Shown in pieces: positions 2,918-32,409 of a DNA stretch of 35,282 bases (position 1 is its first letter; the number at the start of each line of letters is the position of its first letter). Made by a program: the position numbers and the translations under genes. Below the pieces are notes generated by a model. The model saw only the letters and a program-made list of their open reading frames with translations. It had not been told where the DNA came from and searched no databases. This stretch comes from Phascolarctobacterium sp. (GTDB lineage: Bacteria; Bacillota; Negativicutes; Acidaminococcales; Acidaminococcaceae). The stretch lies in NCBI GenBank assembly GCA_017467905.1, contig JAFUKD010000037.1:1-35282 (forward strand), read 5' to 3'.

Positions 2918-2957
2918 AAAAAACGCCTGCGGAATAGTAGTAACTGTCCCGCAGACG
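2918..2957 (-). terminator. Riboswitch-controlled intrinsic terminator
   Basis: Read on the minus strand, CGTCTGCGG (2957-2949) pairs with CCGCAGGCG (2932-2924) with one G-U pair, followed by six T. The 5' arm is also the 3' strand of the last aptamer helix, so aptamer and terminator cannot form together. Confidence 0.85.
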
Positions 2958-3029
2958 TTGTGTTTTGTCTGCTGCCGTAAGGCCCGGCTGCAAAAACCAT
3001 TTTGGTTTACCGCCTGATCAGATTGTACT
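2937..3029 (-). promoter_or_regulatory. NiCo-type (czcD) riboswitch aptamer
   Basis: Minus-strand leader of the CDF gene. It contains, in order, CTGATCAGGCGG, a helix AAACC/GGTTT, GCAGCCGGGC, GGCAGCAGAC, a loop, GTCTGCGGGACAGTT. This order and the conserved segments GCAGCCGGGC and GGGACAGTT match the NiCo riboswitch as I remember it from the crystallised Erysipelotrichaceae RNA. Co2+, Ni2+ or Fe2+ binding would hold the GCAGAC/GTCTGC helix and block the downstream terminator, so the exporter is switched on by metal. The outer P1 helix looks weak here. Confidence 0.85.
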
Positions 3030-3061
3030 GTAGCTTGTCGCAGTGCAAAGAGATTAGTTTC

Positions 3062-3094: not shown

Positions 3095-4357
3095 TTAGCC
3101 ACGAATATATTTGAGAGCACTTTGAGCGGCGATGGCTCCGTCGTTGGTAGCAGTTACCACTTGGCGAAGTACCTTGGCGCACACGTCGCCTGCACCGTAG
3201 ATGCCGGGGATGGCGGTGCTCATATCTTCATTTACTTGCAGGTAACCTTGGGCATTGGTGATGCCTAAGTCTTTTATAAATTTAGTAACAGGGTCCGCGC
3301 CAATGTAGGGGAATATGCCGTTGGCGGGTATGATTTCTTCCTCGTTGGTTTGGGTGTTTAACACTCGCATGCCTGCAACCTTATTGTCTTTAACTACAAC
3401 TTCCAGTGATTCGCGGAAGGGAAGGATGGTAATTTTGGGATTGTCCTTCACCTTTTGTTGAGTGATAAGCTCGGCAATGTACTTGTCGCTACGGGCAAGG
3501 ATGGTTACGTGAGTTGCGAATTCTGCTAAATAAAGAGATTCTTCGAAAGCAGAGTTGCCTGCACCGATAATTACTACCGGCTTGTTACGATAGAAGGCAG
3601 CATCGCATACTGCGCAGAAGCTTACCCCGCGCCCAATCATTTCCATTTCGCCGGGAATGCCAAGGGTACGTTCCACTGTTCCCGTGGCGATAATCACTGC
3701 CGTTGCGGCAAAGCGTTTATTATTTTCGCAGACAACAATTTTTTGCTTGCCTTCATCAATAATCTGCTCTGCCTTTTCGTACAGGTAGTCCGTGCCCAGC
3801 GCCATTGCCTGCTCGTAAATATCGTAAGCAAGCTGGCTGCCGCTTACGTTCTTGTGTCCGGGCCAGTTTTCCAGCTCGAAGGTTTTAATGAGCTTGCCGC
3901 CGGGAGCGAAGGCTTCCAACACCAAGGTCTTTAAGCCTGCTCGTCTGGCGTAGATGGCAGAGGTCAAACCTGCTGCGCCACCGCCGATGATAATTAAATC
4001 GTAGTTTTCTTCCGGCGCAGCTTCTACAGGCGGTTCGTTGCCAAGGAGCTTTTCGCAACGTGCCTGTAAGCGTTCCAAGGGAAGGAAGCCGCTGTAACGG
4101 GAAGCAATTTCTCCATCTTTAATAAAGAGCAGGGTGGGGACAATGGTTACATCCAGCTCTTCCGTCAGTTCAGGTTCTTTATCTATGTCAATTTTCAAAA
4201 TATCTAATTTGTCGCCCATAATTTTATCTAAATCGTCCAGCACGTAGCTTTCCATTTTACAGGGACCGCACCAAGTTGCGAAGAAGTCTGCAAAAAAGGT
4301 TTTCTTTGCTGCCAACATTTCCTTGAATTCTTGAGCGTTGGGATGTTTGATAGCCAT
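3095..4357 (-). CDS. Thioredoxin / thioredoxin-reductase-like fusion
   Basis: A 420-residue fusion. Residues 1-105 form a thioredoxin with the active site WCGPC (29-33) and the cis-Pro loop VPTLLF. Residues 118-420 form a thioredoxin-reductase-type flavoprotein with an FAD loop GGGAAG (125-130), the redox pair CAVC (248-251), a nucleotide loop GAGNSA (265-270) and a C-terminal GAGDV FAD motif. A single chain would pass electrons from flavin through CAVC to its own thioredoxin. The order is thioredoxin first, opposite to the Mycobacterium leprae fusion. The HRRxxxR segment that binds the NADPH phosphate in E. coli TrxB reads ARSDKYIAE here, so the usual NADPH preference is doubtful. Start ATG at 4357 with AGGAAGTG upstream. 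It is probably monocistronic, because the next gene has its own promoter. Confidence 0.9.
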   Translation of the reverse strand: MAIKHPNAQEFKEMLAAKKTFFADFFATWCGPCKMESYVLDDLDKIMGDKLDILKIDIDKEPELTEELDVTIVPTLLFIKDGEIASRYSGFLPLERLQARCEKLLGNEPPVEAAPEENYDLIIIGGGAAGLTSAIYARRAGLKTLVLEAFAPGGKLIKTFELENWPGHKNVSGSQLAYDIYEQAMALGTDYLYEKAEQIIDEGKQKIVVCENNKRFAATAVIIATGTVERTLGIPGEMEMIGRGVSFCAVCDAAFYRNKPVVIIGAGNSAFEESLYLAEFATHVTILARSDKYIAELITQQKVKDNPKITILPFRESLEVVVKDNKVAGMRVLNTQTNEEEIIPANGIFPYIGADPVTKFIKDLGITNAQGYLQVNEDMSTAIPGIYGAGDVCAKVLRQVVTATNDGAIAAQSALKYIRG

Positions 4358-7443: not shown

Positions 7444-8109
7444 ATGTTGGAACGTAAAAAGCTTTTAGCCGGAATTTTCATTGCCCTGTTATCTTTAAAT
7501 ATTTGTAGCAGCGAAGCACAGGCTGGTACTACTACGGAAAAGGAAGAAGCGAGAATGTGGGGAGGCTTTAGGGATAAGGTTTCCTGCACGGTGGAAGGCA
7601 GCACTGTAACCACTACCACTACAGAAAAAGTTGTAGTAAAGGAAGTGGCAGTGCCTGTTTACCGCTATCCCTTCCTCTTTATTTGGGACGATTGGTATCA
7701 TTGGGGCAGGTGGCATCATCACCATCGCATCTATAGACCTTTGCCTGCACCGCCTCATAGACCAGCCATGGGCAGACCAATGCCCAGACCGCCCAAGCCT
7801 TCTGCTGTGAGACCTGCTTCCCGTCCTGAAAGACCTGCTATAGGTAAGCCTGTTCCCAGACCAAGCAGACCTGCCATCGGCAAACCGGCTTCCAGACCGC
7901 CAAGGCAGGAGCAGATAGGCAGACCGAGTGCAAAACCTAATAGACCTGCCATTTCAAGACAAGCTCCACAGCCCAGACCGAGACCGCAGGTAAAGAGCGC
8001 GCCGCGCTCTCGTGATGAGCAGATGATTTTCCAAAATGGAGGACCCCGTGGTGGAGTAAGGCATCATGGTGGGAGACCGGATGGTGCAAGACCGCCAAGA
8101 GGTAGATGA
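7444..8109 (+). CDS. Secreted Pro/Arg-rich repeat protein, unknown function
   Basis: A 221-residue protein with a signal peptide (MLERKKLLAGIFIALLSLNICSSEAQA) and no recognised domain. After a Thr-rich stretch comes an aromatic/His cluster (FIWDDWYHWGRWHHHHRIY, about residues 75-93). The C-terminal 130 residues are built from loose repeats of the form RPAIGKPxPRPxR and end in Gly/Arg/His-rich sequence, so this half is basic and probably disordered. The start at 7444 has GGAGGT seven bases before it; an earlier in-frame ATG at 7426 has no such site. An inverted repeat GTTAAG-N5-CTTAAC (7385-7401), overlapping a possible -10 (TATACT), stands upstream. Its stop overlaps the next gene. Possible roles are binding of acidic polymers or metal in the periplasm; this is a guess. 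Confidence 0.75.
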   Translation: MLERKKLLAGIFIALLSLNICSSEAQAGTTTEKEEARMWGGFRDKVSCTVEGSTVTTTTTEKVVVKEVAVPVYRYPFLFIWDDWYHWGRWHHHHRIYRPLPAPPHRPAMGRPMPRPPKPSAVRPASRPERPAIGKPVPRPSRPAIGKPASRPPRQEQIGRPSAKPNRPAISRQAPQPRPRPQVKSAPRSRDEQMIFQNGGPRGGVRHHGGRPDGARPPRGR

Positions 8110-9002
8110 TGGGGGTATGGAAGATGAAGAAAGTAAAGAAGCTTTTATTAACTGTGGCGTTGTGCTGTGTAAGCAGTGTGGCCGCCGCCTATAACCCTGC
8201 TCTTGCAGATGAAGGTAGATGGGTTTTCTACGATAGCGACAAGGAAGGGGTAATGCGCTTTGATAAGGAAAGCATTACCTTGGAAGGCGACAGGTACGCC
8301 TATGTATGGGCGAAGAAAATTTACAACAGTCCTGAGCTTTTGGGCAAGGAAGACCTGCAGTTGATGTATATTGATTGCGAAAAGAAAAAGTATAAAATTT
8401 TGGACTACGTTTTTTATAGCGATAAGGAAACTGTAGCCTCCAGTGCCAGGTTCAACGCGCTGACTGGCGATAAGGGAGAGCCTTGGAAGGATAAGCATAT
8501 TGAGAAAAAGGCTAACAAGGAGATGGTGAAGCTTATCTTCGACAAAAAGCAGAAGAGCCTTTTAGTAGAAGAGGATGACAGCAGGGCGGTAGTGCCTACG
8601 GATAATACAGAGATGTGGAATTACATTAGTGACCTTTCTACTAATGTGTGGCAGTACATTGGTGGCAGAAACTTATTGGATGCAGCTACAGGCTTGGGTG
8701 AAAGCTATGTCTTTTACTACGACAAGCAGAATGTAAGCAAGTCTAATGATGGCAAAGAGGTAACTGCTTGGATAAAGTATAGATACATTGACGGTAAGGA
8801 CCCAGGTAAGGCGAAGCCGACTGTTAAGTATGGGTTAAGCAGAACTACTATCAATTTGGAGAAGAACACTTACACTGACCATGTAATGCTGTGCTACGAC
8901 GAGAAGGGTGAGTTCGAGGAAGAGTTCACCGCGGAAACAGGCATTAGCAGACCGATATATACGGGAACCATTATGGATATGATTGCTAAAAGCTTGTCGT
9001 AA
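8109..9002 (+). CDS. Exported protein of unknown function, two similar halves
   Basis: A roughly 297-residue secreted protein: a basic N-terminus (MKKVKK), a hydrophobic stretch and a likely cleavage site near AAAYNPALADEG. Two halves look related. The first begins RWVFYDSDKEGVMRFDK and continues YAYVWAKKIY; the second begins SYVFYYDKQNVSKSND and continues VTAWIKYRY. Each half then has a strand-rich segment naming tyrosine and aspartate (LMYIDCEKKKYK and VMLCYDEKGEFE). The pattern recalls surface-adhesin E-like domains, but I cannot confirm the family. Start choice is uncertain: ATG at 8106, 8109 or 8124. The site AAGAGG lies 6 bases before 8109. It overlaps the previous gene and is probably co-translated with it. 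Confidence 0.7.
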   Translation: MGVWKMKKVKKLLLTVALCCVSSVAAAYNPALADEGRWVFYDSDKEGVMRFDKESITLEGDRYAYVWAKKIYNSPELLGKEDLQLMYIDCEKKKYKILDYVFYSDKETVASSARFNALTGDKGEPWKDKHIEKKANKEMVKLIFDKKQKSLLVEEDDSRAVVPTDNTEMWNYISDLSTNVWQYIGGRNLLDAATGLGESYVFYYDKQNVSKSNDGKEVTAWIKYRYIDGKDPGKAKPTVKYGLSRTTINLEKNTYTDHVMLCYDEKGEFEEEFTAETGISRPIYTGTIMDMIAKSLS

Positions 9003-9060: not shown

Positions 9061-9109
9061 AAAAAGCAGGGTAGCTTTAGTACGAAACTAAAACTACTCT
9101 GCTTTTTTT
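9061..9109. terminator. Bidirectional terminator between convergent genes
   Basis: A long stem pairs AAAAAGCAGGGTAGCTTTAGT with ACTAAAACTACTCTGCTTTTT (a few mismatches) and has A and T tracts on the two sides, so it works for both strands. Confidence 0.85.
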
Positions 9110-9114
9110 AAATA

Positions 9115-10329
9115 TTACTTTTCAGTTTTGAATTTCAGGATGAGGGAAACGATAAGGCTCAGTACGAAGCAGCCGGAGAAAAAGTACAGGGTTAAGCTGT
9201 AGCTATGGGTGCGTTCGTAAATGATGGAAAGTAGCAGGGGACCAGCGATACCTGCCAAGCCCCAAGCAGTAAGGATACGGCCATGGATGGCGCTAAGCTG
9301 CTTAGTTCCGAATAAATCGCTGAGGTAGGCAGGCATACAGGAGAAGCCGCCGCCGTAGCAGGTAATAATAATGAAGATAAGTGCTTGGAACATGAAGCTA
9401 TCTGTTACGCTTGCCAACAGGTAGAAGGCTACGATTTGAATTGCGAAGAAGAGGACGTAGGTGTTGCGGCGACCAATATAGTCAGAAAGGGTTGACCAAG
9501 CAATACGTCCACCGCCATTTAGCAAGCCAATGATACCAACCATGGAAGCTGCTTCTAACGGAGACATTTTGATAACCTCTTGCGCCATGGGGGAAGCTAC
9601 TGCCAAAAGACCAATGCCACAGGTAATGTTGGTAAAGAAAATCCACCACAGTGCTGCGAACATCCAGGTTTTCATTGCTTCCTTAGCAGTGTATTGGGGA
9701 CCGGTAACTGCAGGCTGGTTTACGGGGAATTTGTTAGGACCTGCGGTAAGGGGAATGGTTTTAGGAGGTTCTAAGTAAAGAGCAGAGGCTACCATCACAA
9801 CAAAATAAACGCAGCCAAGAATGATGAAGTTTTGAATTAAGCCATATTTAGCTATTAAAAGCTGCATTACAGGACCTGCGATAAGGCTGGCGAAGCCAAA
9901 GCCCATGATTGCCAAGCCTGTTGCCAAGCCGCGGTTATTGGGGAACCATTTTACCAAAGTGGATACGGGAGTGATGTAGCCTGTACCCAAGCCAATGCCG
10001 CCAATGACACCGTAGAACAGATACATTAAAGTTAAACTGTGTTGGGTAAGGGCATAGGCAGTACCAAACATGCCCAAACAAAAAAATGTAGCAGAAACAA
10101 GACCACTGCGGCGAGGGCCATATTTCTCTACATAGCTACCTAAGAAGCCTGCGGAAAGACCCAAGAATAAAATCGCAAGGGAAAAGGTCCAAGTAACATC
10201 TTTCAAGGAGAAACCCATTGCCTCCATAATGGGCTTGGTAAGAACGCTCCAAGCGTAAACGCTACCGATACAGATGTGAATACCAATTGCGGATAGGGCG
10301 ATAAGCCATTTGTTCTTAGTTTGCTGCAT
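9115..10329 (-). CDS. OFA-family MFS transporter under ZTP riboswitch
   Basis: A 404-residue major facilitator with about 12 membrane helices, of the oxalate/formate antiporter (OFA) family. The N-terminal GIHICIGSVYAWSVLTKPI is the family hallmark, followed by the loop-2 motif GSYVEKYGPRRSG and later GIGLGTGYITPVSTLVKWFP. Members carry small carboxylates such as oxalate, formate or lactate, and the cargo cannot be read from sequence alone. Its leader is a ZTP riboswitch, which reports shortage of 10-formyl-tetrahydrofolate, so a link to formate or one-carbon supply is the most sensible inference. It is transcribed alone, and the plus-strand neighbour converges on it at a shared terminator. 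Confidence 0.88.
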   Translation of the reverse strand: MQQTKNKWLIALSAIGIHICIGSVYAWSVLTKPIMEAMGFSLKDVTWTFSLAILFLGLSAGFLGSYVEKYGPRRSGLVSATFFCLGMFGTAYALTQHSLTLMYLFYGVIGGIGLGTGYITPVSTLVKWFPNNRGLATGLAIMGFGFASLIAGPVMQLLIAKYGLIQNFIILGCVYFVVMVASALYLEPPKTIPLTAGPNKFPVNQPAVTGPQYTAKEAMKTWMFAALWWIFFTNITCGIGLLAVASPMAQEVIKMSPLEAASMVGIIGLLNGGGRIAWSTLSDYIGRRNTYVLFFAIQIVAFYLLASVTDSFMFQALIFIIITCYGGGFSCMPAYLSDLFGTKQLSAIHGRILTAWGLAGIAGPLLLSIIYERTHSYSLTLYFFSGCFVLSLIVSLILKFKTEK

Positions 10330-10380
10330 TGTGAAAACCTCTCTTCGTCATAATTTTTAGAAGAAGCACTTGCCGTCCCT

Positions 10381-10420
10381 AAAAACAAAAATCGCCCGGG
10401 CTCAAGTGCTTGCCCAGACG
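10381..10420 (-). terminator. ZTP-riboswitch terminator
   Basis: On the minus strand CGTCTGGGC (10420-10412) pairs with GCCCGGGCG (10401-10393) with two G-U pairs, then ATTTTTGTTTTT. The 5' arm is the conserved 3' end of the aptamer, so ligand binding would prevent termination. Confidence 0.88.
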
Positions 10421-10476
10421 GTCGGCTTTATCACAATACAGTACACGTGGTTGATTCCACTTAATTCCGTCAGTCC
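10412..10476 (-). promoter_or_regulatory. ZTP (pfl) riboswitch aptamer
   Basis: The minus-strand leader reads GGACTGACGG, a hairpin GTGG-AATCAA-CCAC, a variable linker, then GCCGACCGTCTGGGC. These are the conserved parts of the ZTP/pfl riboswitch in the right order. The ligand ZMP/ZTP accumulates when 10-formyl-tetrahydrofolate is short, and binding would turn the transporter on. Confidence 0.88.
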
Positions 10477-10503
10477 TGCATTGCTCTATGAAGTTATGCC
10501 TCT

Positions 10504-10531
10504 ATTATAGCGGATTCCGTCCGTTTGTCAA
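10504..10531 (-). promoter_or_regulatory. Promoter of the ZTP-transporter transcript
   Basis: A perfect TTGACA (10531-10526) and a perfect TATAAT (10509-10504) on the minus strand are spaced by 16 bp. The -35 lies 3 bp from the -35 of the opposite promoter. Confidence 0.85.
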
Positions 10532-10534: not shown

Positions 10535-10564
10535 TTGACATTAGCATGTAAAAATTGTTAATAT
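10535..10564 (+). promoter_or_regulatory. Promoter of the T-box-valS-folC transcript
   Basis: TTGACA (10535-10540) is followed after 18 bp by TAATAT (10559-10564), the best -10 candidate in an AT-rich run. The exact -10 is uncertain. Confidence 0.65.
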
Positions 10565-10584
10565 ATATGGGTAATAAAATATTT

Positions 10585-10780
10585 GAAACGCTATGAAGGA
10601 AAGTTCTTGGGCAAGGCTAAGCTTTTAGAGAAACGGCGGTTGGTGCAAGCCGTAGCGCAGCAGCTAAAGATGTAGTTCCGGAGCAGCTTTGTTGAAGTAG
10701 CAGTAGGCAGAGCCGTTGGCGCACGTTACGCGCATTGAGTGCCCGACAAAATTTGTTGGGAAAATAGGTGGTACCGCGGT
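10585..10780 (+). promoter_or_regulatory. T-box leader of valS
   Basis: Stem I distal-loop features are visible (GGTTGGTGCAAGCC near 10637) and the 14-base T-box AGGTGGTACCGCGG lies at 10766-10779. It should bind uncharged tRNA-Val and allow read-through of the terminator that follows. A candidate specifier codon is GTA at 10672-10674, but I could not fold Stem I well enough to be sure. Confidence 0.92.
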
Positions 10781-10786
10781 TATTCG

Positions 10787-10814
10787 CCCTGTTCTAGTTT
10801 AGGACAGGGTTTTT
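10787..10814 (+). terminator. T-box terminator
   Basis: CCCTGTTCT pairs with AGGACAGGG (one G-U pair) over an AGTTT loop, then five T. It competes with the antiterminator that uses the T-box sequence. Confidence 0.92.
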
Positions 10815-10849: not shown

Positions 10850-10954
10850 CCAGAAGGCGCGAAATATTGAAATTCGTGAAGCGAAGGCGTACTGATTGTA
10901 CGTCGAGCAAGCGAATGAAATGTGACAAAGCATAATGGCGCTTATTACGCTTTT
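10850..10954 (+). other. Structured leader segment between T-box and valS
   Basis: About 100 bp with two hairpins. GGCGTAC/GTACGTC has an outer helper helix ATTCG/CGAAT, and AAAGC-A-TAAT pairs with ATTA-C-GCTTT (10927-10954). No gene fits. The function is unknown: perhaps a second control step or a repeat remnant. Confidence 0.45.
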
Positions 10955-10976
10955 AGTGATAGGAGGACTAAAGTTA

Positions 10977-13637
10977 ATGTGCGAACAACAAGAACACAAC
11001 ATCCCTAAAGTATACGATCCCGCTTCCGTTGAGAAGAAATGGTATAAATATTGGGAAGACAATCGTTATTTTCATGCAGAAGTAGAGGAAGGTAAAGAAG
11101 CATTCAGCATCGTAATTCCCCCTCCGAATATCACCGGTCAACTGCATATGGGTCACGCTTTGGACAACACCCTGCAAGATATTCTGATTCGTTGGCACCG
11201 CATGATGGGTCACAATACTCTGTGGATGCCCGGCTATGACCATGCAGGCTTGGCTACCCAAATTAAAGTAGAAGAAGTAATTAAAAAAGAAGAAAATAAA
11301 ACCCGCTATGATCTTGGTCGTGAAGAATTCCTGAAACGTGTTTGGGAATGGAAGGACCAATACGGCGACCGCATCATCAACCAATTGAAATGCTTGGGCG
11401 TTTCCTGCGATTGGGAACGCAAACGCTTTACTATGGATGAAGGTTGCTCTCAAGCTGTACGCGAAGTGTTCTGCTCCTTGTACGAAAAAGGCTTGATTTA
11501 CAAAGGTACCCGCATTACTAACTGGTGCGTAAACTGTAACACAGCTTTGAGTGATATCGAAGTAGAACATAAGGATGACGCAGGTAATCTGTGGTATATC
11601 CAATACCCTGTTGTGGAAGAAGAGGGCACCTTCCTGACTATCGCTACCACTCGTCCGGAAACCATGCTGGGCGATACTGCAGTAGCAGTTAATCCGGAAG
11701 ACCCCCGTTATGGTCATTTGGTTGGCAAGCATTTGCGCCTGCCCATTACTGAACGCATCATTCCCATTATTGCAGATAGCTATGTAGATTTGGAATTTGG
11801 TACCGGCGCTGTAAAAATTACTCCGGCACACGACCCCAACGACTATGAAATGGGTATCCGTCATAAACTTCCCAGCATCGTTGTTATTGGCATGAACGGC
11901 TTGATGACTGAAGAAGCTGGCAAATACGCTGGTCAAGAACGTTACGAATGTCGTAAAAATTTGCTGAAAGAGCTGAAAGAAATTGGCGCGCTTGTAAAAA
12001 TTGAAGACCACGCTCACGCTGTTGGTCACTGCCAACGTTGCGGCAGCGTAGTAGAACCCTTGGTATCTACCCAATGGTTTGTAAAAATGGAGCCCTTGGT
12101 AAAAGCTGCTGTTGACTGCGTTGAAGACGGTCGCACCAAATTCGTTCCTGAACGTTTTACCAAAACTTATACTGGCTGGATGGAAAATATCCGCGATTGG
12201 TGTATCTCTCGCCAAATTTGGTGGGGTCACCGTATTCCCGTTTGGTACTGCGATGATTGCGGCGAAATGCACGCTTCCCGTATCGACTTGACTGCTTGCC
12301 CCAAATGTGGCAGCGCTAACATTCACCAAGACGAAGATGCTCTGGACACTTGGTTCAGTAGCGCACTGTGGCCTTTCTCCACTATGGGCTGGCCGGAGAA
12401 AACTCCTCTCTTAAAACAATTCTATCCCACTAGCGTACTGGTAACCGGTTACGACATCATCTTCTTCTGGGTTGCTCGTATGCTTATAATGGGTATGGAA
12501 TTTATGGAAGATATTCCCTTCGAAAAAGTATTCATCCACGGTCTGGTTCGTGATAGCCAAGGCCGTAAGATGTCTAAATCCTTGGGCAACGGCATTGACC
12601 CCTTGGAAGTTATTGATAAATACGGCGCTGACACCCTGCGCTTTATGCTTATCACCGGTAACACTCCGGGTAACGATATGCGCTTCTATTGGGAACGTGT
12701 GGAATCTACCCGTAACTTTGCTAACAAAATCTGGAACGCATCCCGTTTTGCATTGATGAACATTGAAGGCTATGACCCCAATGCTAAGCTTGCTCCCTAC
12801 ACCTTGGCAGATAAATGGATTCTTTCCCGCCTGCAACACGTGTCCAAAGAAGTTACCGATTTGCTGGGCAAATTTGAATTGGGCGAAGCTGGCCGTAGCA
12901 TTTATGACTTTATCTGGGGCGAAGTTTGTGACTGGTACATTGAACTTGCTAAACCTCGTCTGTACAATAAAGAAAACGCTGAAGAACGCGCAACTGCTCA
13001 ACATGTACTGGCAACCGTTCTTACTAGCGCAATGCAGCTCTTGCATCCCTACATGCCCTTCATCACCGAAGAAATTTACCAATGCCTGCCTCACCAAGCA
13101 GAAAGCATTATGGTTTCTGAGTGGCCCTTTGCTAAAGAAGAGCTTGTGGACGATGAAGCAGAACGCCTGATGGGCGCAATCATGGACAGCATCAAAGCTA
13201 TCCGTAACATGCGTGCAGAAGTTAACGTACCGCCCGGAAAGAAGGTTCCTGCAATTCTCCTGGCAGCTGCAGACCTGAAAGCCGGCGTAGAAGCTAACGC
13301 TAATTACATCCACCTGATGGGTGCTATTGACGAGCTGACTGTTTTGGCTGACGACGCAGCTAAACCGGAAAACGCAATGGCAGCAGTTGTAAGCGGCATT
13401 GAAGTTTACCTGCCCTTGGCTGGCTTGATTGACGTTGAAAAAGAAAACCAACGCTTGAATAAAGAATTGGCTACCATCGACAAAGAGCTGAGCCGCGTAG
13501 AAGGCAAGCTGGGCAACGCAGGCTTCTTGGCAAAAGCTCCGGCTGATGTTATCGAAAAAGAAAAAGCTAAGGCTGAAGAACTTAACGGTAAGAAAAATGC
13601 CATTCTTGAACGCCTTGAGTATTTGAAAACATTATGA
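10977..13637 (+). CDS. valS: Valyl-tRNA synthetase
   Basis: Class I synthetase of 886 residues that charges tRNA-Val. The signature HMGH appears in PPNITGQLHMGHALDN and KMSKS in GRKMSKSLGN. Between them lies the editing (CP1) domain with TTRPETMLGDTAVAVNP and a zinc-type Cys pattern (CQRCG, CDDCG, CPKCG). The last 70 residues form the coiled-coil tRNA-binding arm (ENQRLNKELATIDKELSRVEGKL). The start at 10977 is preferred because AGGAGG lies just before it; an ATG at 10935 overlaps a hairpin and has no ribosome site. Expression is set by the T-box leader. The stop overlaps folC by 4 bp. Confidence 0.97.
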   Translation: MCEQQEHNIPKVYDPASVEKKWYKYWEDNRYFHAEVEEGKEAFSIVIPPPNITGQLHMGHALDNTLQDILIRWHRMMGHNTLWMPGYDHAGLATQIKVEEVIKKEENKTRYDLGREEFLKRVWEWKDQYGDRIINQLKCLGVSCDWERKRFTMDEGCSQAVREVFCSLYEKGLIYKGTRITNWCVNCNTALSDIEVEHKDDAGNLWYIQYPVVEEEGTFLTIATTRPETMLGDTAVAVNPEDPRYGHLVGKHLRLPITERIIPIIADSYVDLEFGTGAVKITPAHDPNDYEMGIRHKLPSIVVIGMNGLMTEEAGKYAGQERYECRKNLLKELKEIGALVKIEDHAHAVGHCQRCGSVVEPLVSTQWFVKMEPLVKAAVDCVEDGRTKFVPERFTKTYTGWMENIRDWCISRQIWWGHRIPVWYCDDCGEMHASRIDLTACPKCGSANIHQDEDALDTWFSSALWPFSTMGWPEKTPLLKQFYPTSVLVTGYDIIFFWVARMLIMGMEFMEDIPFEKVFIHGLVRDSQGRKMSKSLGNGIDPLEVIDKYGADTLRFMLITGNTPGNDMRFYWERVESTRNFANKIWNASRFALMNIEGYDPNAKLAPYTLADKWILSRLQHVSKEVTDLLGKFELGEAGRSIYDFIWGEVCDWYIELAKPRLYNKENAEERATAQHVLATVLTSAMQLLHPYMPFITEEIYQCLPHQAESIMVSEWPFAKEELVDDEAERLMGAIMDSIKAIRNMRAEVNVPPGKKVPAILLAAADLKAGVEANANYIHLMGAIDELTVLADDAAKPENAMAAVVSGIEVYLPLAGLIDVEKENQRLNKELATIDKELSRVEGKLGNAGFLAKAPADVIEKEKAKAEELNGKKNAILERLEYLKTL

Positions 13638-14938
13638 ATTACATTGAAAGTTTAGAATATCTTAATAGCTTAGGAAAATTTGGCATCCAATTGGGTATGG
13701 AACGCATTGAAGGTTTGCTGCGTGAACTGGGTAACCCGGAACAAAAGATTAAAACCGTACACGTTACCGGAACCAATGGCAAAGGCTCTGTCAGCAGTAT
13801 GATTACCAATATCATCTTGGCGGCGGGCTTAAAGGCTGGCAAATTTACCTCTCCCCACCTTGTGAAATATAACGAGCGTATCGAGTTGAACGGCAAGGAC
13901 ATCAGCGACGAGGACTTCGCAACTGTTATCACTGCCGTAAGGGTAGCAGCAGATAGCATTGTGAAAAAAGGTGTGTGCGAGCAGCCTACTCAATTTGAAA
14001 TCTTAACCGCTGCTGCCTTCCTCTACTTTTACTTACAAAAGGTAGATTACGCCGTTATCGAAGTTGGCTTGGGTGGCTTGTGGGATTCCACAAACATCAT
14101 TACTCCTGTGGTATCCGTAATCACCAATGTTTCCTTAGACCACACTGACCGTTGCGGCGGTACTGTGGCGCGTATCGCCATGCAAAAGGCAGGCATCATC
14201 AAGGAGAAGGTTCCCGTAGTAACTGCGGCAGAAGGTGAAGAAGCACTTGGCCCCATTGTTACCATGGCAATGTTCAAGGAAGCGCCTGTGTATTTGTACG
14301 GTAAGGCTTTCTACGGAACAGAAGTTACCAGCTCCATGGATGGTCAAAGGTTTACTTTGCACGCAGGGGACTACTACCATTCCGATTACGAGATTAGGTT
14401 GCCCGGCGAACATCAAATTAAAAATACCAGCGTGGCGATTGTGGCGGCGAAGCTTGTTTCCAAACAGGATGCACGCATTAACGAGATTGCCCTGCACATG
14501 GGTGTGGCTAATACTCTGTGGCCCGGTCGTTTGGAACGCATTGCTCAAAAGCCTGATTTGATTTTGGACGGCGCTCATAATCCTGACGGAGCAAAAGCAC
14601 TGCGTAATGCTTTGGATAAATATTATTCTGGCAAGCCCGTACATTTTGTTTTTGGTATGATGGGCGATAAGGATATGACAAGCGTTATCAAAACCTTGAT
14701 TAAGCCTTGCGACGTGGTGTTCACTGTTCGTGCGGATGGTGGCGCTCGTGCTGCGGAAGCCAATGTGCTGGCTGAGCTTGTGGGCAGTAATGCCATTGCT
14801 GAAAGTGATTTGCAGGAAGCCTACCACAAGGCAATGGCGCAAGCCGGCGAAGATGGCGTTGTGTGCGTATGCGGTAGCCTGTATCTGGTAGGTGAGTTCA
14901 AGGCAATGCTGCAACGTGAAAAAGAGCAGTGCCATTAA
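13634..14938 (+). CDS. folC: Folylpolyglutamate / dihydrofolate synthase
   Basis: A 434-residue Mur-ligase-like enzyme that adds glutamate to (dihydro)folates, retaining them in the cell. The ATP loop is TGTNGKGSVSSMI (about 45-57). Family motifs follow: FTSPHLVKYNERIELNG, VEVGLGGLWDSTNII, and LDHTDRCGGTVARIAMQKAGIIK. The C-terminal ligase domain holds DGAHNPDGA. It overlaps valS by ATGA and shares its transcript, the common valS-folC order in Firmicutes. The folate link is notable because the divergent neighbour is controlled by a ZTP riboswitch that senses folate one-carbon status. Confidence 0.95.
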   Translation: MNYIESLEYLNSLGKFGIQLGMERIEGLLRELGNPEQKIKTVHVTGTNGKGSVSSMITNIILAAGLKAGKFTSPHLVKYNERIELNGKDISDEDFATVITAVRVAADSIVKKGVCEQPTQFEILTAAAFLYFYLQKVDYAVIEVGLGGLWDSTNIITPVVSVITNVSLDHTDRCGGTVARIAMQKAGIIKEKVPVVTAAEGEEALGPIVTMAMFKEAPVYLYGKAFYGTEVTSSMDGQRFTLHAGDYYHSDYEIRLPGEHQIKNTSVAIVAAKLVSKQDARINEIALHMGVANTLWPGRLERIAQKPDLILDGAHNPDGAKALRNALDKYYSGKPVHFVFGMMGDKDMTSVIKTLIKPCDVVFTVRADGGARAAEANVLAELVGSNAIAESDLQEAYHKAMAQAGEDGVVCVCGSLYLVGEFKAMLQREKEQCH

Positions 14939-22336: not shown

Positions 22337-24061
22337 ATGACAATGGTAAATTTGACTATCAACGGCAAGCAAATTCAAGCTCCTCAAGGTGCTACTATTT
22401 TAGAAGCAGCACGTGGAGCAGGTATTCATATTCCCACCCTGTGCTATCATCCGGAGCTGCGTCCTGAGGGAGCGTGCCGCCTGTGCATGGTAGAAGCTTC
22501 TGGTGCCAGAACCTTGGTTGCTTCCTGCGTATATCCCATTAGTGAAGGTATGGTGGTAAATACCAATACCAATAAGGTGCGTGAAGCACGTAAAACAGTA
22601 GTAGAGCTTTTGCTGGCGAACCATCCTAAGGATTGTTTGAGCTGCCAAAGAAGCGGTGATTGCGAACTGCAGAAAATTGCTGCCGATTTGGGCATGCGTA
22701 AGATTCGTTTTGATGGCGGTGCAAGAAAGGCTCATACTATCGACTGCAGCAATCCGTCCTTGGTACGCGACCAGGAAAAATGTATTTTGTGTGGTCGTTG
22801 TATCCGTGTTTGCCGCGATGTTCAGGGTATGAGCGTGTATAGCTTTGCAAGACGTGGCTTTGATACTATCGTATCTACTGCGTTTGAAAATGATTTGAAG
22901 GATGCTGTTTGTACCTACTGCGGTCAATGCGCAAGTGTTTGTCCCACTGCTGCTATTGTAGAAAAGGATGATACTGAGAAGGTTTGGGCTGCCATTAATG
23001 ACCCTGGAAAGGTTGTGCTGGTGCAAACTGCTCCTGCAGTACGCGTTGCCCTTGGCGAAGAGCTGGGGATTCCTGCCGGCAGCATTGTTACAGGGAAAAT
23101 GGTTGCAGCCTTGCGCCGTTTAGGCTTTGATAAAGTTTTTGATACTAATTTCTCTGCGGATTTGACTATTATGGAAGAAGGGCATGAGTTCCTTCACCGT
23201 TTACAAAATGGCGGCGTGTTGCCCATGATCACATCCTGCAGTCCCGGATGGGTTAATATGATGGAGCTTAAATATCCTGAACTGCTGCCCCATCTTTCCA
23301 CTGCTAAATCTCCGCAGCAGATGTTTGGCGCCGTAGCCAAAACTTATTACGCAGAAAAAGCCGGTATCAATCCTGCTGACATTGTGTGCGTATCCGTGAT
23401 GCCCTGCACTGCGAAGAAGGCAGAGGCTGCCCGCGAGGAGATGTGTGACAGCGGCTATCGCGATGTTGATGTGGTAATTACTACCCGCGAGCTGGGACGC
23501 ATGATTCGCGAAGCCGGTCTGGACTTTGCTAATCTGCCTGAAGAAAAATACGATTCTCCTTTGGGAGCAGGTACCGGTGCTGCAGTTATCTTCGGTACTA
23601 CCGGCGGCGTGATGGAAGCTGCCCTGCGCACTGTTGCCGAGGTTGTTCTGGGTGAAGAGATTGCAAATGTAGAGTATCATGATGTGCGCGGCATGGAGCA
23701 AACTCGTGAAGCTGTAATCAAGGTGGGTGAGACAGAGGTAAAGGTTGCCGTTGTTCACACTTTGGCTTCTGCGAGAAAAATGCTGGAACGCATCAAGGCA
23801 GGTACTGCAGATTACCACTTTATCGAAGTAATGGCTTGCCCTGGAGGCTGCATTGGTGGCGGTGGTCAACCCTTGCCGGTGAACGCTGAAATCAGGAGGA
23901 TTCGCCGCGAAGCATTATTTGAATGCGACAGAGCAAGTGAATTACGAAAATCACATGAAAATCCTGAAATTAAAGAGCTTTATGATACTTGGCTCGGAAA
24001 ACCTCTTGGAGAAAAGGCGCATAGTCTTTTGCACACGCACTATTCTGCGCAAAAACGTTAA
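22337..24061 (+). CDS. hydA: Catalytic [FeFe]-hydrogenase subunit (HydA/HndD)
   Basis: A 574-residue catalytic subunit. N-terminal [2Fe-2S] domain (C36, C47, C50, C64), a His-ligated [4Fe-4S] (H96, C100, C103, C109), two [4Fe-4S] motifs near 149-202, then the H-cluster domain: TSCSPGW (299-305), MPCTAKKAE (C357) and ACPGGCIGGGGQP (C501, C505). A C-terminal tail after 515 resembles small-subunit HydA tails. The first motif has Ser where the textbook form is TSCCPxW; I draw no conclusion from this. It makes H2 from ferredoxin and NADH electrons, disposing of excess reductant in fermentation. It ends at a strong terminator. Confidence 0.95.
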   Translation: MTMVNLTINGKQIQAPQGATILEAARGAGIHIPTLCYHPELRPEGACRLCMVEASGARTLVASCVYPISEGMVVNTNTNKVREARKTVVELLLANHPKDCLSCQRSGDCELQKIAADLGMRKIRFDGGARKAHTIDCSNPSLVRDQEKCILCGRCIRVCRDVQGMSVYSFARRGFDTIVSTAFENDLKDAVCTYCGQCASVCPTAAIVEKDDTEKVWAAINDPGKVVLVQTAPAVRVALGEELGIPAGSIVTGKMVAALRRLGFDKVFDTNFSADLTIMEEGHEFLHRLQNGGVLPMITSCSPGWVNMMELKYPELLPHLSTAKSPQQMFGAVAKTYYAEKAGINPADIVCVSVMPCTAKKAEAAREEMCDSGYRDVDVVITTRELGRMIREAGLDFANLPEEKYDSPLGAGTGAAVIFGTTGGVMEAALRTVAEVVLGEEIANVEYHDVRGMEQTREAVIKVGETEVKVAVVHTLASARKMLERIKAGTADYHFIEVMACPGGCIGGGGQPLPVNAEIRRIRREALFECDRASELRKSHENPEIKELYDTWLGKPLGEKAHSLLHTHYSAQKR

Positions 24062-24499: not shown

Positions 24500-26020
24500 A
24501 TGATCGACATTAAAGATCGCATTTGTGACGTAGTAGCTGACAAAGTTATGTCCGCTGAAGCTGCTGCAGAATTCGTAAAAGATGGTGACAACGTAGGTAC
24601 CAGTGGTTTTACCCCGTCTGGTTATCCGAAAGCTGTTCCTCTGGCTCTTGCTGAAAGAGGCAAAGTTAACCCCTTCAAAATCAATGTTTGGACTGGCGCA
24701 TCCGTAGGTCCCGAAATGGATACCGCTATGAGCCAAGCAGGCATCGTTGACCGTCGTCTGCCCTACCAAACCAACAACGATATGCGTAAAGCTATCAACA
24801 ATGGTTCCGTAAAATACACCGACTTGCACTTGAGCCATGTTGCTCAAATGTCCCGTTATGGCTTCTATGCTAACCGTCGTGACGTTGACGTAGCTATCGT
24901 AGAAGTTTGCAAAATCATCGACCTCGGCGAAGGCAAAGTAGGTTTGATTCCGACCACTTCCATGGGCAACAGCTCTTCCTTCGTTCAATCCGCTAAAAAA
25001 GTTATCGTTGAAGTTAACACCACTCAACCGGTAGCTCTGGAAGGCATGCATGACTCCTATGTTCCCCTGGATCCTCCGTGCCGCGAAGCTATCCCCGTTG
25101 TTGACTCCGGTACCATCATTGGCACCCCGTACATTCCTTGCGAAGTTGAAAAAATTGCTGCAGTAGTTGGCTGCGACATCACCGATAAAGTTCGTCCTTT
25201 GGGCGCTATCGACGACGACGCAAAAGCTATGGGCAAAAACTTGGTTGACTTCTTCAAAGCTGAAGTTGCTGCTGGCCGCTTGCCGAAAAACTTGTTGCCG
25301 TTGCAATCTGGCGTAGGTTCCGTTGCTAACGCAGTTATCAATGGCCTCGTTAACTCCGACTTCGAAGACCTCACCGTTTACACCGAAGTTATCCAAGACG
25401 GTATGTTCGACCTCATCGACGCTGGCAAACTCCGCGTTTGCTCCGGTACCGCTTTGAGCCCGTCTCCGGAATGCCTCAAAAAATTCTATGACAATGTAGA
25501 AACCTACAAAAAATACATCATCCTCCGTCCGCAAGAAGTTGCTAACAGCCCGGAAGTTGCTCGTCGTATCGGCGTTATCGCTATGAACACCGCTATCGAA
25601 GTTGACATCTATGGTAACGTTAACTCCACTCATATCTGCGGCACCAAAATCATGAACGGCATCGGCGGTTCCGGCGACTATGCTCGTAACGGCTTCTTGA
25701 CCGTATTCTTCACCACCTCCTTGGCAAAAGGCGGCGCTATCTCTTCTGTAGTTCCGTTCTGCAGCCATATCGACCACACCGAACATGACGTTGACGTTAT
25801 CGTTTCCGAACGTGGTGTAGCTGACCTTCGTGGCCTCTGCCCGAAAGAACGCGCTCTGGTTATCATCGACAAGATTGCTAACCCGAAATATCAACCGATT
25901 CTGTTGGATTACTTCCACAGAGCATGCGAAGCTTGCGGCAACAGCCAAACTCCGCACATCCTGACCGAAGCATTCGATTTCCACAACCGTTTCGTTGCTA
26001 CCGGCACCATGGAAAAATAA
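24500..26020 (+). CDS. scpC: Succinate / propionyl-CoA CoA-transferase
   Basis: A 506-residue class I CoA-transferase of the acetyl-CoA hydrolase/transferase family. It most likely moves CoA from propionyl-CoA to succinate, releasing propionate and supplying succinyl-CoA to the mutase. The active-site glutamate is in LTVYTEVIQDG (E296), and Gly-rich CoA-binding segments include GVGSVANAV and GGSGDYARNG. The ATG at 24500 follows AAGGAGGAAGG. Codon use is strongly biased, as in highly expressed genes. It is the first gene of the propionate operon. The exact CoA donor cannot be seen; butyryl- or acetyl-CoA is possible. Confidence 0.85.
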   Translation: MIDIKDRICDVVADKVMSAEAAAEFVKDGDNVGTSGFTPSGYPKAVPLALAERGKVNPFKINVWTGASVGPEMDTAMSQAGIVDRRLPYQTNNDMRKAINNGSVKYTDLHLSHVAQMSRYGFYANRRDVDVAIVEVCKIIDLGEGKVGLIPTTSMGNSSSFVQSAKKVIVEVNTTQPVALEGMHDSYVPLDPPCREAIPVVDSGTIIGTPYIPCEVEKIAAVVGCDITDKVRPLGAIDDDAKAMGKNLVDFFKAEVAAGRLPKNLLPLQSGVGSVANAVINGLVNSDFEDLTVYTEVIQDGMFDLIDAGKLRVCSGTALSPSPECLKKFYDNVETYKKYIILRPQEVANSPEVARRIGVIAMNTAIEVDIYGNVNSTHICGTKIMNGIGGSGDYARNGFLTVFFTTSLAKGGAISSVVPFCSHIDHTEHDVDVIVSERGVADLRGLCPKERALVIIDKIANPKYQPILLDYFHRACEACGNSQTPHILTEAFDFHNRFVATGTMEK

Positions 26021-26196
26021 TTCAAAAACTCTTGTTAAGTTTTTGAAAATAGGTTAAACTATTAAATGTACCTTGCCCATAGATGATAGTTCTATGGGCG
26101 GGTCATTTATGAATTTGTTGACGAAGCGTGAGCTTTGCCATATACCGTCTTTGACGGAACACTCTCACCATCGTTTCGGATCCGTCCAATCCGAAA
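26021..26196 (+). other. Four hairpins between the CoA-transferase and mutase genes
   Basis: Perfect stems: TTCAAAAACT/AGTTTTTGAA (26021-26047), GCCCATAGA/TCTATGGGC (26075-26099), CCGTC/GACGG (26145-26157) and TTTCGGAT/ATCCGAAA (26174-26196). There are no U-tracts, so they look like mRNA-protecting or processing elements, or an unrecognised regulatory RNA. Confidence 0.6.
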
Positions 26197-26231
26197 TATG
26201 TAAACCAAATATTTTAAGGAGGATTTTCAGA

Positions 26232-27878
26232 ATGGCATTTGAAGAAATTAAAGCTGGTTTAGAAAAATACACCGCTGGTGTAGAAGCTAAACTCGACAAA
26301 GCACCTGAACGTGCAAACCTCGCACCTAACAGACTGTACACCCCGGTTGACCTCGGTGAAGGCTTCGACTACGTTGAAAAACTGGGCTTCCCCGGTGAAT
26401 ATCCTTTCACTCGTGGCGTACAACCCACCATGTATCGTGGTCGTTTCTGGACCATGCGTATGTACGCTGGTTTCTCCACCGCAGAAGAATCCAACAAACG
26501 TTATCGTTACCTGTTGGCTAACGGCGGTTCCGGCTTGTCCTGCGCATTTGACCTTCCGACCCAAATCGGTTATGACTCCACCGACGCTATGTCCGAAGGC
26601 GAAGTTGGTAAAGTAGGCGTAGCAATCGACTCCTTGGCTGACATGGAAATCCTGTTCGACGGCATCTCCCTCGACAAAGTTTCCACCTCCATGACCATCA
26701 ACGCTCCTGCTTCCGTACTGCTCGCTATGTACATTGCAGTTGCTGAAAAACAAGGCGTTTCCGCTGACAAACTCCGCGGCACCATCCAAAACGACATCCT
26801 GAAAGAATACGCAGCTCGCGGCACCTATATCTTCCCGCCTGCTCCGTCCATGCGTTTGATCACCAATATTTTCGAATATTGCTCCAAAAACGTACCGCTG
26901 TGGAACACCATCTCCATCTCCGGTTACCACATCCGTGAAGCTGGTTCCACCGCTTCCCAAGAAATCGCATTCACCATCGCTGACGGCATCGCTTATGTAG
27001 AAGCTGCTATCAAAGCTGGTTTGGACGTTGACGCTTTCGCTGGCCGTCTGTCCTTCTTCTGGAATGCTCACAACAACGTACTCGAAGAAGTTGCTAAATT
27101 CCGCGCTTCCCGTCGTGTATGGGCAAAAGTTATGAAAGAACGTTTTGGCGCTAAAAAAGCTAAATCCATGATGCTCCGCGTTCACACCCAAACCGCAGGC
27201 TCCATGCTGACCGCTCAACAACCGAACAACAACATCGTTCGCGTTGCTTTGCAAACCGCTGCAGCTGTAATGGGTGGCACCCAATCCTTGCACACCAACT
27301 CCAAAGACGAAGCTTTGGCTCTCCCGACCACTGAATCCGTAACCATCGCTCTCCGTACCCAACAAATCGTTGCTTACGAATCCGGCTTGGCTGACACCGT
27401 TGACCCGTTGGGCGGTTCCTACTATGTAGAAGCTTTGACTGACAAAATCGAAGCTGAAGCTTGGGAATACATCCAAAAAATCGACGAAATCGGTGGCGCT
27501 CCGGAAGCTATCGCTAAAGGCTACATCCAAAAAGAAATCCAAGACTCCGCTTACAAATGGCAAATGGATATCGAAAAAGGCGACCGTATCATCGTTGGCG
27601 TTAACAAATTCCAACAAGAAGAAGAACCGCCGACAAACCTGCTCCGCGTAGACGGCTCTGTAGGCAAACTGCAAGCTGACAAAATCGCTGCATTGAAAGC
27701 TCGTCGTGACAACGCTAAAGTTGAAGAAACCTTGGCTGCTTTGGAAAAAGCTTGCGCAGGCGACGACAACCTGATGCCGTTCATCCTCGACGCAGTTCGT
27801 GCATATGCTACCGAAGGCGAAATCTGCGGCGTTATGAGAAAAGTATTTGGCGAATACAAAGCTAATATCACTCTCTAA
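26232..27878 (+). CDS. mcmA1: Methylmalonyl-CoA mutase, catalytic subunit
   Basis: The large (catalytic) chain of the two-chain B12-dependent mutase that isomerises succinyl-CoA to (R)-methylmalonyl-CoA. 548 residues without the cobalamin domain, which is encoded next. Family signatures: [37 protein letters not shown] and [21 protein letters not shown]196 in this last segment matches the carboxylate-binding R207 of Propionibacterium MutB; the position of its Y89 reads Gln64 by my alignment. The start ATG at 26232 has AAGGAGG upstream; a longer frame from 26073 runs through hairpins and lacks support. Codon bias is very strong. Confidence 0.93.
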
Positions 27879-27923
27879 TTCCTAAAATTTGTAAACACTA
27901 ACATTATACGGAGGTAACTTATA

Positions 27924-28313
27924 ATGGCAAACGTAAAAGTTTTAGTTGCTAAACCGGGTCTTGATGGTCATGACCGCGGTGCTAAAGTTGTAGCTCGTGC
28001 ATTGCGCGACGCTGGTTTTGAAGTAATCTACACCGGTATTCGTCTGACCCCGGAACAAATCGCTGAAGCTGCTCTGCAAGACGACGTTAACGTAGTTGCA
28101 TTGTCCTTGCTCTCCGGCGCTCACAACACCCTGTTCCCGACCGTAGTAGAACTGTTGAAAGCTAAAGGCTTGGAAGACGTTCTGGTAATCGGCGGCGGCG
28201 TTATTCCTGACGCTGACATCCCTGGCTTGAAAGCTGCTGGCATTGCAGAAGTATTCACCCCGGGCACCCCGACCAGCAACATCGTTGACTTCATCAACGC
28301 TAACGTTAAATAA
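27924..28313 (+). CDS. mcmA2: Methylmalonyl-CoA mutase, B12-binding subunit
   Basis: A 129-residue cobalamin-binding chain, partner of the preceding catalytic chain. The lower-ligand motif DGHDRGAK supplies the histidine to cobalt; SLLSGAHNT and VIGGGVIP complete the B12-binding fold, and the C-terminus is [16 protein letters not shown]. Separate chains are typical for archaeal and some Firmicute mutases. It lies 45 bp after the catalytic gene with its own GGAGG site; a strong hairpin follows the stop. Confidence 0.95.
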
Positions 28314-28333
28314 TTTAGTTTCTTAACTTTTTG

Positions 28334-28360
28334 TGCAGGGCGGGCGTGTTCCGCCCTGCA
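28334..28360 (+). other. Intercistronic hairpin after mcmA2
   Basis: TGCAGGGCGG and CCGCCCTGCA form a perfect GC-rich 10-bp stem with a 7-base loop but no following T-run. It probably protects or ends a processed mRNA rather than stopping transcription. Confidence 0.7.
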
Positions 28361-28397
28361 TTAAAAAATACACTGACAAGACAAGGCGGTGTGAATT

Positions 28398-29336
28398 TTG
28401 GAAATCGTAAGTAAATTATTAGATCATTCTCGTCTTGCATTATCTAAAGCAATTACTGCTGTTGAAAATGAATATGACGATGCTGTCAAAATTATGACAG
28501 AAATCTATCCCCATACCGGTAATGCTTATGTAATCGGTATTACTGGCCCTCCGGGTGCTGGTAAATCTACCCTGACTGATAAACTTGCAAAAGAATATCG
28601 CAAACGCGGTAAAACTGTAGGTATCGTAGCGATTGACCCCACTAGCCCGTATTCCGGCGGTGCTATTCTTGGTGACCGTATTAGAATGATGGATTTGATG
28701 GCCGATGAAGGAATCTTTGTTCGTTCTATGGCTACTCGCGGCAGCCTCGGCGGCCTCTCCCAAAAAGCAGGCGATGCTGTAAAACTTATGGATGCTTTTG
28801 GCATGGACGTAGTTATCGTTGAAACCGTAGGCGTTGGTCAATCTGAAGTTGACATCGTTAAAACTGCGGATACTACCATGGTAGTTGTAATCCCCGGCAT
28901 GGGCGACGACATCCAAGCTATTAAAGCAGGTGTACTTGAAATCGGTGACCTTTTCACTATCAACAAAGCTGATCGTGAAGGTACAGACAAGCTCAACATT
29001 GAGATTGAAATGATGCTCGAATTAAATCCCGAACATGTTGGCTGGCGTCCTCCGATTAACAGGACCATAGCTAGCAAGGGTGAAGGTATAGAAGCTGTTG
29101 TGGACTCCATTGAAGCTCACAAAGCATATTTGATTGACACCGGTAGATTGGCAGAAATCCGTAAAGCTCGTATCAAAAACGAAGTTACTGCAATGCTCAA
29201 TGACCGTGTAAATCGCTACATCGACAAAGAAGTTGTTTCCACTGATGCATTTGATGCTCTGGTAGTTAAGATGCAAAACCGTGAAATCGAACCGTACTCT
29301 GTCGTTGATGATATCGTTGGTAAAGTTTTAAAATAA
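28398..29336 (+). CDS. meaB: MeaB/ArgK GTPase, mutase chaperone
   Basis: A 312-residue G3E-type GTPase that loads and protects the B12 cofactor of methylmalonyl-CoA mutase. P-loop GITGPPGAGKST (47-58), switch segment AIDPTSPYSGGAILGDR, VETVGVGQSE (G3 region) and NKAD (G4). The start is a TTG at 28398, with AAGGCGGTG 6 bases upstream; no ATG fits. The residues before the P-loop match the usual N-terminal helices. Its place directly after the mutase genes fits the chaperone role. Codon bias is lower than in the structural genes, so less protein is expected. Confidence 0.93.
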   Translation: MEIVSKLLDHSRLALSKAITAVENEYDDAVKIMTEIYPHTGNAYVIGITGPPGAGKSTLTDKLAKEYRKRGKTVGIVAIDPTSPYSGGAILGDRIRMMDLMADEGIFVRSMATRGSLGGLSQKAGDAVKLMDAFGMDVVIVETVGVGQSEVDIVKTADTTMVVVIPGMGDDIQAIKAGVLEIGDLFTINKADREGTDKLNIEIEMMLELNPEHVGWRPPINRTIASKGEGIEAVVDSIEAHKAYLIDTGRLAEIRKARIKNEVTAMLNDRVNRYIDKEVVSTDAFDALVVKMQNREIEPYSVVDDIVGKVLK

Positions 29337-29376
29337 ATAAAACCACCAAAATTCAAACATTTAGGAGGAATTTACT

Positions 29377-29805
29377 ATGGCATTCAAAACTATTTGTGTT
29401 GACCACGTTGGTATTGCTTGCGCTGACCTCGAAGCAGCTGCAAAAATTTACACCGAAGTTCTCGGTTTAGAAATCACCAACCGTGAAGAAGTTAAAGAAC
29501 AAGGCGTTGCAACCGTATTCATTCCTTGCGGCGAAACCCTGCTCGAACTCCTCGTTGATATCACCGAAAACAATGATGGCCCGATCGGCAAATACATTGC
29601 TAAAAACGGCCCTGGCATCCAACACATCGCATTGCGCGTTGACGACATCAAAGCTGCAATCGCTGAATGTGAAGCTGCTGGCATCAAAATGATTGACAAA
29701 GTTGCTCGTAACGGCGCTGGTCAAATGAAAATTGCTTTCGTTCATCCGAAATCCGCTGGCTGCCTGTTGGAACTCTGCCAACCGGCTGCAACCTATGTTG
29801 ACTAA
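29377..29805 (+). CDS. mce: Methylmalonyl-CoA epimerase
   Basis: A 142-residue member of the glyoxalase/vicinal oxygen chelate fold that interconverts (R)- and (S)-methylmalonyl-CoA, linking the mutase to the decarboxylase. The metal ligands are in CVDHVGIACADLE (H10), GIQHIALRVDDI and the terminal LLELCQP. It matches the usual family length. AGGAGG precedes the ATG at 29377. A long hairpin follows in the gap to mmdA. Confidence 0.93.
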   Translation: MAFKTICVDHVGIACADLEAAAKIYTEVLGLEITNREEVKEQGVATVFIPCGETLLELLVDITENNDGPIGKYIAKNGPGIQHIALRVDDIKAAIAECEAAGIKMIDKVARNGAGQMKIAFVHPKSAGCLLELCQPAATYVD

Positions 29806-29856
29806 TTTATAAGCTTTAGTTTGTAAATTAACTTAGGTATTTAAACTTGTTACATG

Positions 29857-29887
29857 GTGCAGAGCGTGCAAGTGACATGCTCTGCAC
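29857..29887 (+). other. Intercistronic hairpin before mmdA
   Basis: GTGCAGAGC pairs perfectly with GCTCTGCAC over a 13-base loop. There is no U-tract. It is similar in build to the hairpin after mcmA2. Confidence 0.68.
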
Positions 29888-29932
29888 ATGTATATAAAAT
29901 TTGTTCTCCCAATAATGATGGAGGTGTAAGAT

Positions 29933-31459: not shown

Positions 31460-31520
31460 TTCGAAGCAAAGAATTGCTTAGTGCTTAATAGCTAAATTAA
31501 GAAAAGATGAGGTGAAATAA

Positions 31521-31871
31521 ATGGGTGCTGTAACCACTAACCCTTGGCTGATTGCTATCATCAACATGACCATCGTATTCGGCGTATTGATCGCTTTGGG
31601 CGTATTGATGAGCTTGATCCAAGTAGTCGATCCCACTAAAAAAAAAGCTGATGCTCCCAAAGTAGCTGCTCCGGCTCCGGCTCCGGCTGCTGCTCCTGTA
31701 GCAGCTCCCGCAGCTTCCAGCAACGATGAAATCATCGCTGCTATCGCAGCTGCAGTTGCAGCTCTTGGTTGCTCTGCTGACGACATCGCTTATGTTCGTC
31801 GTCTCCCGAACACTGGTTGGACCAACGCAGCTCGCGTTGAAGCTAACAGCGTTCGTAAAGAATGCTTCTAA
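31521..31871 (+). CDS. mmdD: Methylmalonyl-CoA decarboxylase delta (membrane anchor)
   Basis: A 116-residue subunit of the OadG/MmdD type. One membrane helix (about residues 8-35), a charged KKKAD border, an Ala/Pro linker (about 45-67) and a C-terminal domain (SSNDEIIAAIAAAVAALGCSADDIAYVRRL...). The helix anchors the complex, and the C-terminal part should hold MmdA. The C-terminal domain ends VRKECF. AAGATGAGGTG precedes the ATG. A second gene at 34100 encodes exactly the first 43 residues of this protein. Confidence 0.92.
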   Translation: MGAVTTNPWLIAIINMTIVFGVLIALGVLMSLIQVVDPTKKKADAPKVAAPAPAPAAAPVAAPAASSNDEIIAAIAAAVAALGCSADDIAYVRRLPNTGWTNAARVEANSVRKECF

Positions 31872-31930
31872 TTTAAAATTAGAATATAATCTATTTATTT
31901 AAATACGAGATTTAAGGAGGATTCATTTCC

Positions 31931-32329: not shown

Positions 32330-32334
32330 TTTTT

Positions 32335-32409
32335 AGTTAACAGTTCGCAAGGTTAACTAATTATTAAAATACTTGTTCCTTGGAGGGGCTCCTTCGCAAG
32401 AGCCCTTCC
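32335..32409 (+). other. Two intercistronic hairpins before mmdB
   Basis: AGTTAAC/GTTAACT (32335-32358) and the stronger GGAGGGGCTC/GAGCCCTTCC (32382-32409, one G-U pair). There are no U-tracts. The second lies 27 bp before the mmdB start. Confidence 0.68.

Follow-up and report, generated by a model that had tools for sequence, protein, structure and literature searches.

The published core list of genes under ZTP riboswitches comprises purH, fhs, pfl, glyA and folD (ZMP/ZTP class: Weinberg 2010, PMC2864571; T. carboxydivorans switch PMC7337938). Why, at this locus, would such a switch lie in front of a gene for a membrane carrier, and what would that carrier transport? An earlier note on this DNA had described a ZTP/pfl leader on the minus strand controlling an OFA-family small-carboxylate transporter, with formate as its guess for the cargo. 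We analysed the window, by which we mean the whole stretch of 35,282 nucleotides; it makes up one entire contig, C31, in a draft genome of 1.84 Mb. The features of the carrier unit are as follows, in the order of transcription.

10504..10531, minus strand: sigma-70 type promoter, TTGACA-16-TATAAT, matching the consensus at 12/12 positions.
10405..10487, minus strand: ZMP/ZTP riboswitch aptamer (pfl motif), RF01750, 57.3 bits (gathering score 39).
10381..10420, minus strand: intrinsic terminator sharing the 3′ strand of P3 (CTGGGC end), identified by sequence and fold, with its U-tract at 10391-10381.
10364..10411, minus strand: candidate antiterminator helix, AAGCACTTG (10411-10403) with CAAGTGCTT (10372-10364), a 9-bp perfect complement.
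9115..10329, minus strand: MFS monocarboxylate carrier (SfMCT/OFA type, 404 aa) and proposed importer of formate; NF049980 393 bits, PF07690 135 bits.
9071..9097, minus strand: terminator-like hairpin 3′ of the carrier gene, which fits a single-gene transcript.

A covariance search of the window with all Rfam families identified ZMP-ZTP (RF01750) on the minus strand at 10487-10405 with an E value of 6e-7, and the match covered the full model (positions 1-86). The leader described in the earlier note was thereby confirmed; the interval given for it, 10381-10476, ended exactly at the end of the U-tract but started 11 bases inside the aptamer. The riboswitch in front of the carrier is an ordinary member of the known class. 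The promoter ends 16 bases before the aptamer, the ribosome binding site of the carrier gene is GAGAGG at 10343-10338, and the next gene past the carrier (8106-9002, plus strand) is convergent. The genome contains two ZTP switches, the second of which lies upstream of an AICAR-formyltransferase (purH-type) gene. On the plus strand, a promoter-like site at 10535-10564 begins 4 bases from the promoter of the ZTP switch, and a T-box leader (10584-10794, 111.9 bits) lies upstream of valS (10935-13637) and folC (13634-14938); this unit is divergent from the ZTP-carrier unit.

Downstream of the aptamer we found an expression platform that competes with P3. The 3′ part of P3, CGTCTGGGC at 10420-10412, is able to form a stem with GCCCGGGCG (10401-10393), and ATTTTTGTTTTT (10392-10381) follows; reuse of the CTGGGC end by a terminator had been claimed before and was borne out by both sequence and fold. 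Terminators that reuse this segment were present in 26 of 41 orthologous leaders. Validated ZTP switches of the ON type are built in this way, with the terminator overlapping P3 (PMC7337938). Since the terminator shares the CTGGGC end of P3, we infer by homology with those switches that the leader is also an ON switch. The locus thus resembles known ZMP/ZTP riboswitches in its aptamer, its pseudoknot segments, the terminator overlapping P3, the ON logic predicted by homology and the purH partner in the genome, whereas it differs in that its target is a membrane carrier.

A second difference from the known switches is that some leaders, including that of the window, carry an additional helix, a possible antiterminator, on the 3′ side of P3. 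AAGCACTTG is the loop of the terminator and directly follows P3, whereas its partner CAAGTGCTT lies beyond the U-tract, such that the helix would span the terminator 3′ arm and the U-tract. None of 400 shuffles gave an equally good complement. In the orthologous leaders of L125/L126 the corresponding segments are AGCATTT/AAATGCT, in which both sides are altered, constituting one compensatory change. A comparable helix at p <= 0.05 versus shuffles was found in 10 of 30 distinct leaders, some of which are related. This helix could be an antiterminator that stacks on P3 in the ligand-bound state.

Comparison across genomes indicated that the arrangement is conserved. ZTP switches were present in 57 of the 59 genomes of the family. 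In 25 of the 59 a switch lay directly upstream of the carrier; the other switches preceded mainly purH-type genes, and also fhs, pfl or pflA. Four carriers in the family were without a visible ZTP switch; three of these are paralogues that are 57-60% identical and the fourth has a contig that ends at its start codon. Outside the family, all 56 carriers of at least 62% identity that could be assessed in a class-wide sample have a ZTP aptamer upstream (counting that of L161, which at 38.0 bits is slightly under the threshold), with the distance from the aptamer to the match usually being 55-95 bases. The link was mixed among carriers of 51-61% identity, and below 50% it was found at three loci only, all in one genus (G131, G174 and an arrangement in G177). 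The possibility that the ZTP-carrier link is an accident of a single genome was ruled out by this class-wide conservation. Near orthologues of the carrier had no conserved operon partner, their downstream neighbors being variable, and none of the 17 upstream regions of FNT channels that we tested, one of them cut short, was under ZTP control.

Several variants of the arrangement were also observed. Two tandem ZTP aptamers precede the carrier in four genomes (G079:C17, G089:C6, G119:C100 and G140:C2), and in G026 (C80 and C45) the ZTP-linked carrier is apparently broken by frame breaks and an internal stop. L224 has a Molybdenum cofactor riboswitch (3115-3239, plus strand, 47.3 bits) some 3.8 kb away from its ZTP-carrier unit.

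The assignment of the carrier to the OFA family held in part. The protein is an MFS carrier of the OFA/MCT type, but it scored below both cut-offs for oxalate/formate antiporters (TIGR00890, 210 versus 375 bits; TIGR04259, 154 versus 335 bits) and instead exceeded that of the SfMCT "L-lactate MFS transporter" model (NCBIfam NF049980, 393 versus 320 bits). Its closest solved structure is SfMCT (6g9x, E 1e-34), followed by OxlT (E 5e-24). We therefore mapped its residues on the published substrate sites of SfMCT, an L-lactate:H+ transporter that by sequence belongs to the same MFS family (PDB 6g9x/6hcl; PMC6573034), and of OxlT, an oxalate:formate antiporter with which it shares the OFA superfamily (PDB 8hpk; PMC10070484). 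The substrate arginine R275, together with N271 and Y118, was invariant in 43 close ZTP-linked orthologues. The equivalents of R280, N276, Y119, Y331 and F335 of SfMCT are conserved in the carrier of the window, as are those of R272, N268, Y35 and Y124 of OxlT, whereas C362, L145, F359 and H250 of SfMCT are replaced by W, F, L and V. Judged from these residues, the pocket is of the monocarboxylate type, with F144 and W356 being bulkier than the residues that SfMCT has at these positions.

The same comparison bears on oxalate, which the carrier might import in exchange for formate as a one-carbon source. In support of such an exchange are the distant similarity to OxlT and the reported expression of acetyl-CoA:oxalate CoA-transferase in Phascolarctobacterium (PMC11204068). 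However, K355, the second substrate-binding base of OxlT and essential there for oxalate, corresponds to W356, and Q34 to V24, in all 43 close ZTP-linked proteins, and both OFA models were failed. Moreover, no oxalate pathway accompanies the carrier: a scan of 200 Negativicutes genomes gave no oxalyl-CoA decarboxylase (Oxc), whereas the E. coli control was positive. The absence of both K355 and this enzyme makes oxalate very improbable as the cargo, and we rejected it.

The match to SfMCT raises the alternative that the carrier imports L-lactate or pyruvate, which ZTP would call for as a feed of serine and glycine, and hence of one-carbon units, or of pyruvate formate-lyase (PFL) where this enzyme is present. 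The curated model, the closest solved relative and the five conserved site residues all favor this reading, and the curated annotation of the carrier as an L-lactate transporter counts against formate. Conversely, the pocket changes of C362 to W and L145 to F and the replacement of the proton-site residue H250 by V argue against it. Near paralogues without ZTP share almost the same pocket, and we saw no clear difference between ZTP-linked and unlinked proteins; the pocket therefore does not single out formate. It is the genomic context that favors formate over lactate.

The first part of this context is gene content. The genome of the window contains Fhs and FolD, and neither a FocA-type (FNT) channel nor PFL was found in it; formate would therefore need to be imported. 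Canonical PFL or a strong FNT channel occurred in 0 of the 25 family genomes with the ZTP-carrier, versus 25 of the 34 family genomes without it (naive Fisher p 2e-9). Within genus g17, 11 genomes have FNT without the carrier and 3 have the ZTP-carrier without FNT, and in genus g2 canonical PFL is missing from just two genomes, which are those with the carrier. On a PurH tree these distributions reduced to some three contrasts that were both independent and informative; all pointed the expected way without reaching significance, such that exclusion between the carrier and PFL or FNT inside the family is suggestive. Outside the family exclusion of FNT or PFL was not found, and a general, class-wide mutual exclusion is thus unsupported; there, six genomes have both PFL and the carrier under ZTP, an arrangement that still fits a shared task of formate supply. 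Because canonical PFL, which converts pyruvate to formate, is absent from all 25 family genomes with the ZTP-carrier, the possible use of imported lactate or pyruvate by this enzyme is weakened. Two points count against a need for outside formate or against the formate reading itself. Nearly every family genome has FolD, and therefore serine can also supply formyl-THF. In addition, the FNT family includes nitrite and hydrosulfide channels.

The second part is linkage to fhs, whose product uses formate as its substrate. Of 18 examined loci that encode distant relatives of the carrier (about 37% identity to the protein of the window), 6 have fhs as its neighbor, and the fhs assignments at these loci pass curated models. 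In L223 the ZTP switch, carrier and fhs all have one direction, whereas in L222 the order is carrier, ZTP, fhs and FNT, with the FNT piece cut by the contig end. In L246, L248 and L250 the carrier begins about 15 bases after the end of fhs, and L252 has the opposite order, carrier and then fhs. The formate-THF ligase of these last four loci is a second, diverged one (41-43% identity to that of L223), and their operon-like pairs of fhs and SfMCT-type carrier are without a ZTP switch. The occurrence of two fhs types and two gene orders argues against a single accidental inheritance, while the low identity of these relatives to the carrier of the window counts against transferring the formate reading to it. 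The FocA/FNT formate channels (PF01226) belong to a channel family unrelated to the MFS carrier, yet the two have formate as a proposed common cargo, occupy alternative positions in the family genomes and adjoin each other, ZTP and fhs in L222. Import of L-lactate or pyruvate, which the fhs operons and the family-wide absence of PFL weaken, is nevertheless the main rival, albeit an unlikely one.

Family exclusion of PFL and FocA together with the fhs-linked operons makes formate, the original guess for this locus, the best-supported cargo, and we consider it probable that the ZTP riboswitch turns on a monocarboxylate importer that takes up formate. In the proposed mechanism, a shortage of 10-formyl-THF would leave AICAR unconsumed by AICAR formyltransferase, and ZMP/ZTP would rise. 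ZMP would then stabilize the aptamer pseudoknot and P3, making the CTGGGC strand unavailable for the terminator. With termination blocked, RNA polymerase would continue into the carrier gene, the carrier would take up formate from the environment, and Fhs would charge it onto THF, thereby restoring 10-formyl-THF.

The direction of flux was considered separately. Transport by OFA-type carriers is reversible, formate being released by OxlT (PMC10070484), and Fhs would stall at low THF; the carrier might thus export formate, or another acid, that piles up under THF limitation, easing its toxicity. However, the other ZTP targets in the family (purH, fhs, pfl and pflA) increase the supply or use of formate, and the genome of the window has no PFL to make it, such that export would deepen the shortage. 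We regard export as improbable. Both export and oxalate exchange fit less well than import of formate or of lactate/pyruvate.

If formate import is correct, a widespread family of proteins annotated as L-lactate transporters would really, or also, be a formate uptake system, and many annotations of gut microbes would have to be corrected. The odds seem about even that many Negativicutes carriers annotated in this way are dedicated to formate import within the ZTP (folate-alarm) regulon, unrelated to FocA and replacing PFL and FocA as the formate source in gut Phascolarctobacterium and relatives. The ZTP regulon would gain a transporter, and asaccharolytic succinate users without PFL would have an identified one-carbon source, predicting cross-feeding of formate from PFL-bearing neighbors for purine synthesis. 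The riboswitch predicts that the gene is induced by folate stress, when formate would come to matter. Within the open-access literature, the gene lists of Kim 2015 lying outside this scope, we found nothing that ties ZTP to formate or oxalate transporters; on that coverage the class-wide link of ZTP to the carrier and the formate assignment appear to be new.

Other features of the window were also recorded. A succinate-to-propionate cluster (24500-33567, plus strand) encodes the ScpC CoA transferase, methylmalonyl-CoA mutase, MeaB, MmdA and the beta subunit of a Na+-pumping decarboxylase, and is preceded by a gene for an NADH-dependent FeFe hydrogenase (22337-24061); the cluster fits an asaccharolytic succinate user. 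On the minus strand, a NiCo riboswitch (2942-3031, 68.8 bits) lies inside the 5′ part of a cation efflux family ORF (called at 3091-1943), the true start of which is probably downstream of the riboswitch. Directly upstream of this NiCo-controlled gene, at 3095-4357 on the same strand, is a gene encoding thioredoxin fused to a thioredoxin-reductase-like flavoprotein.
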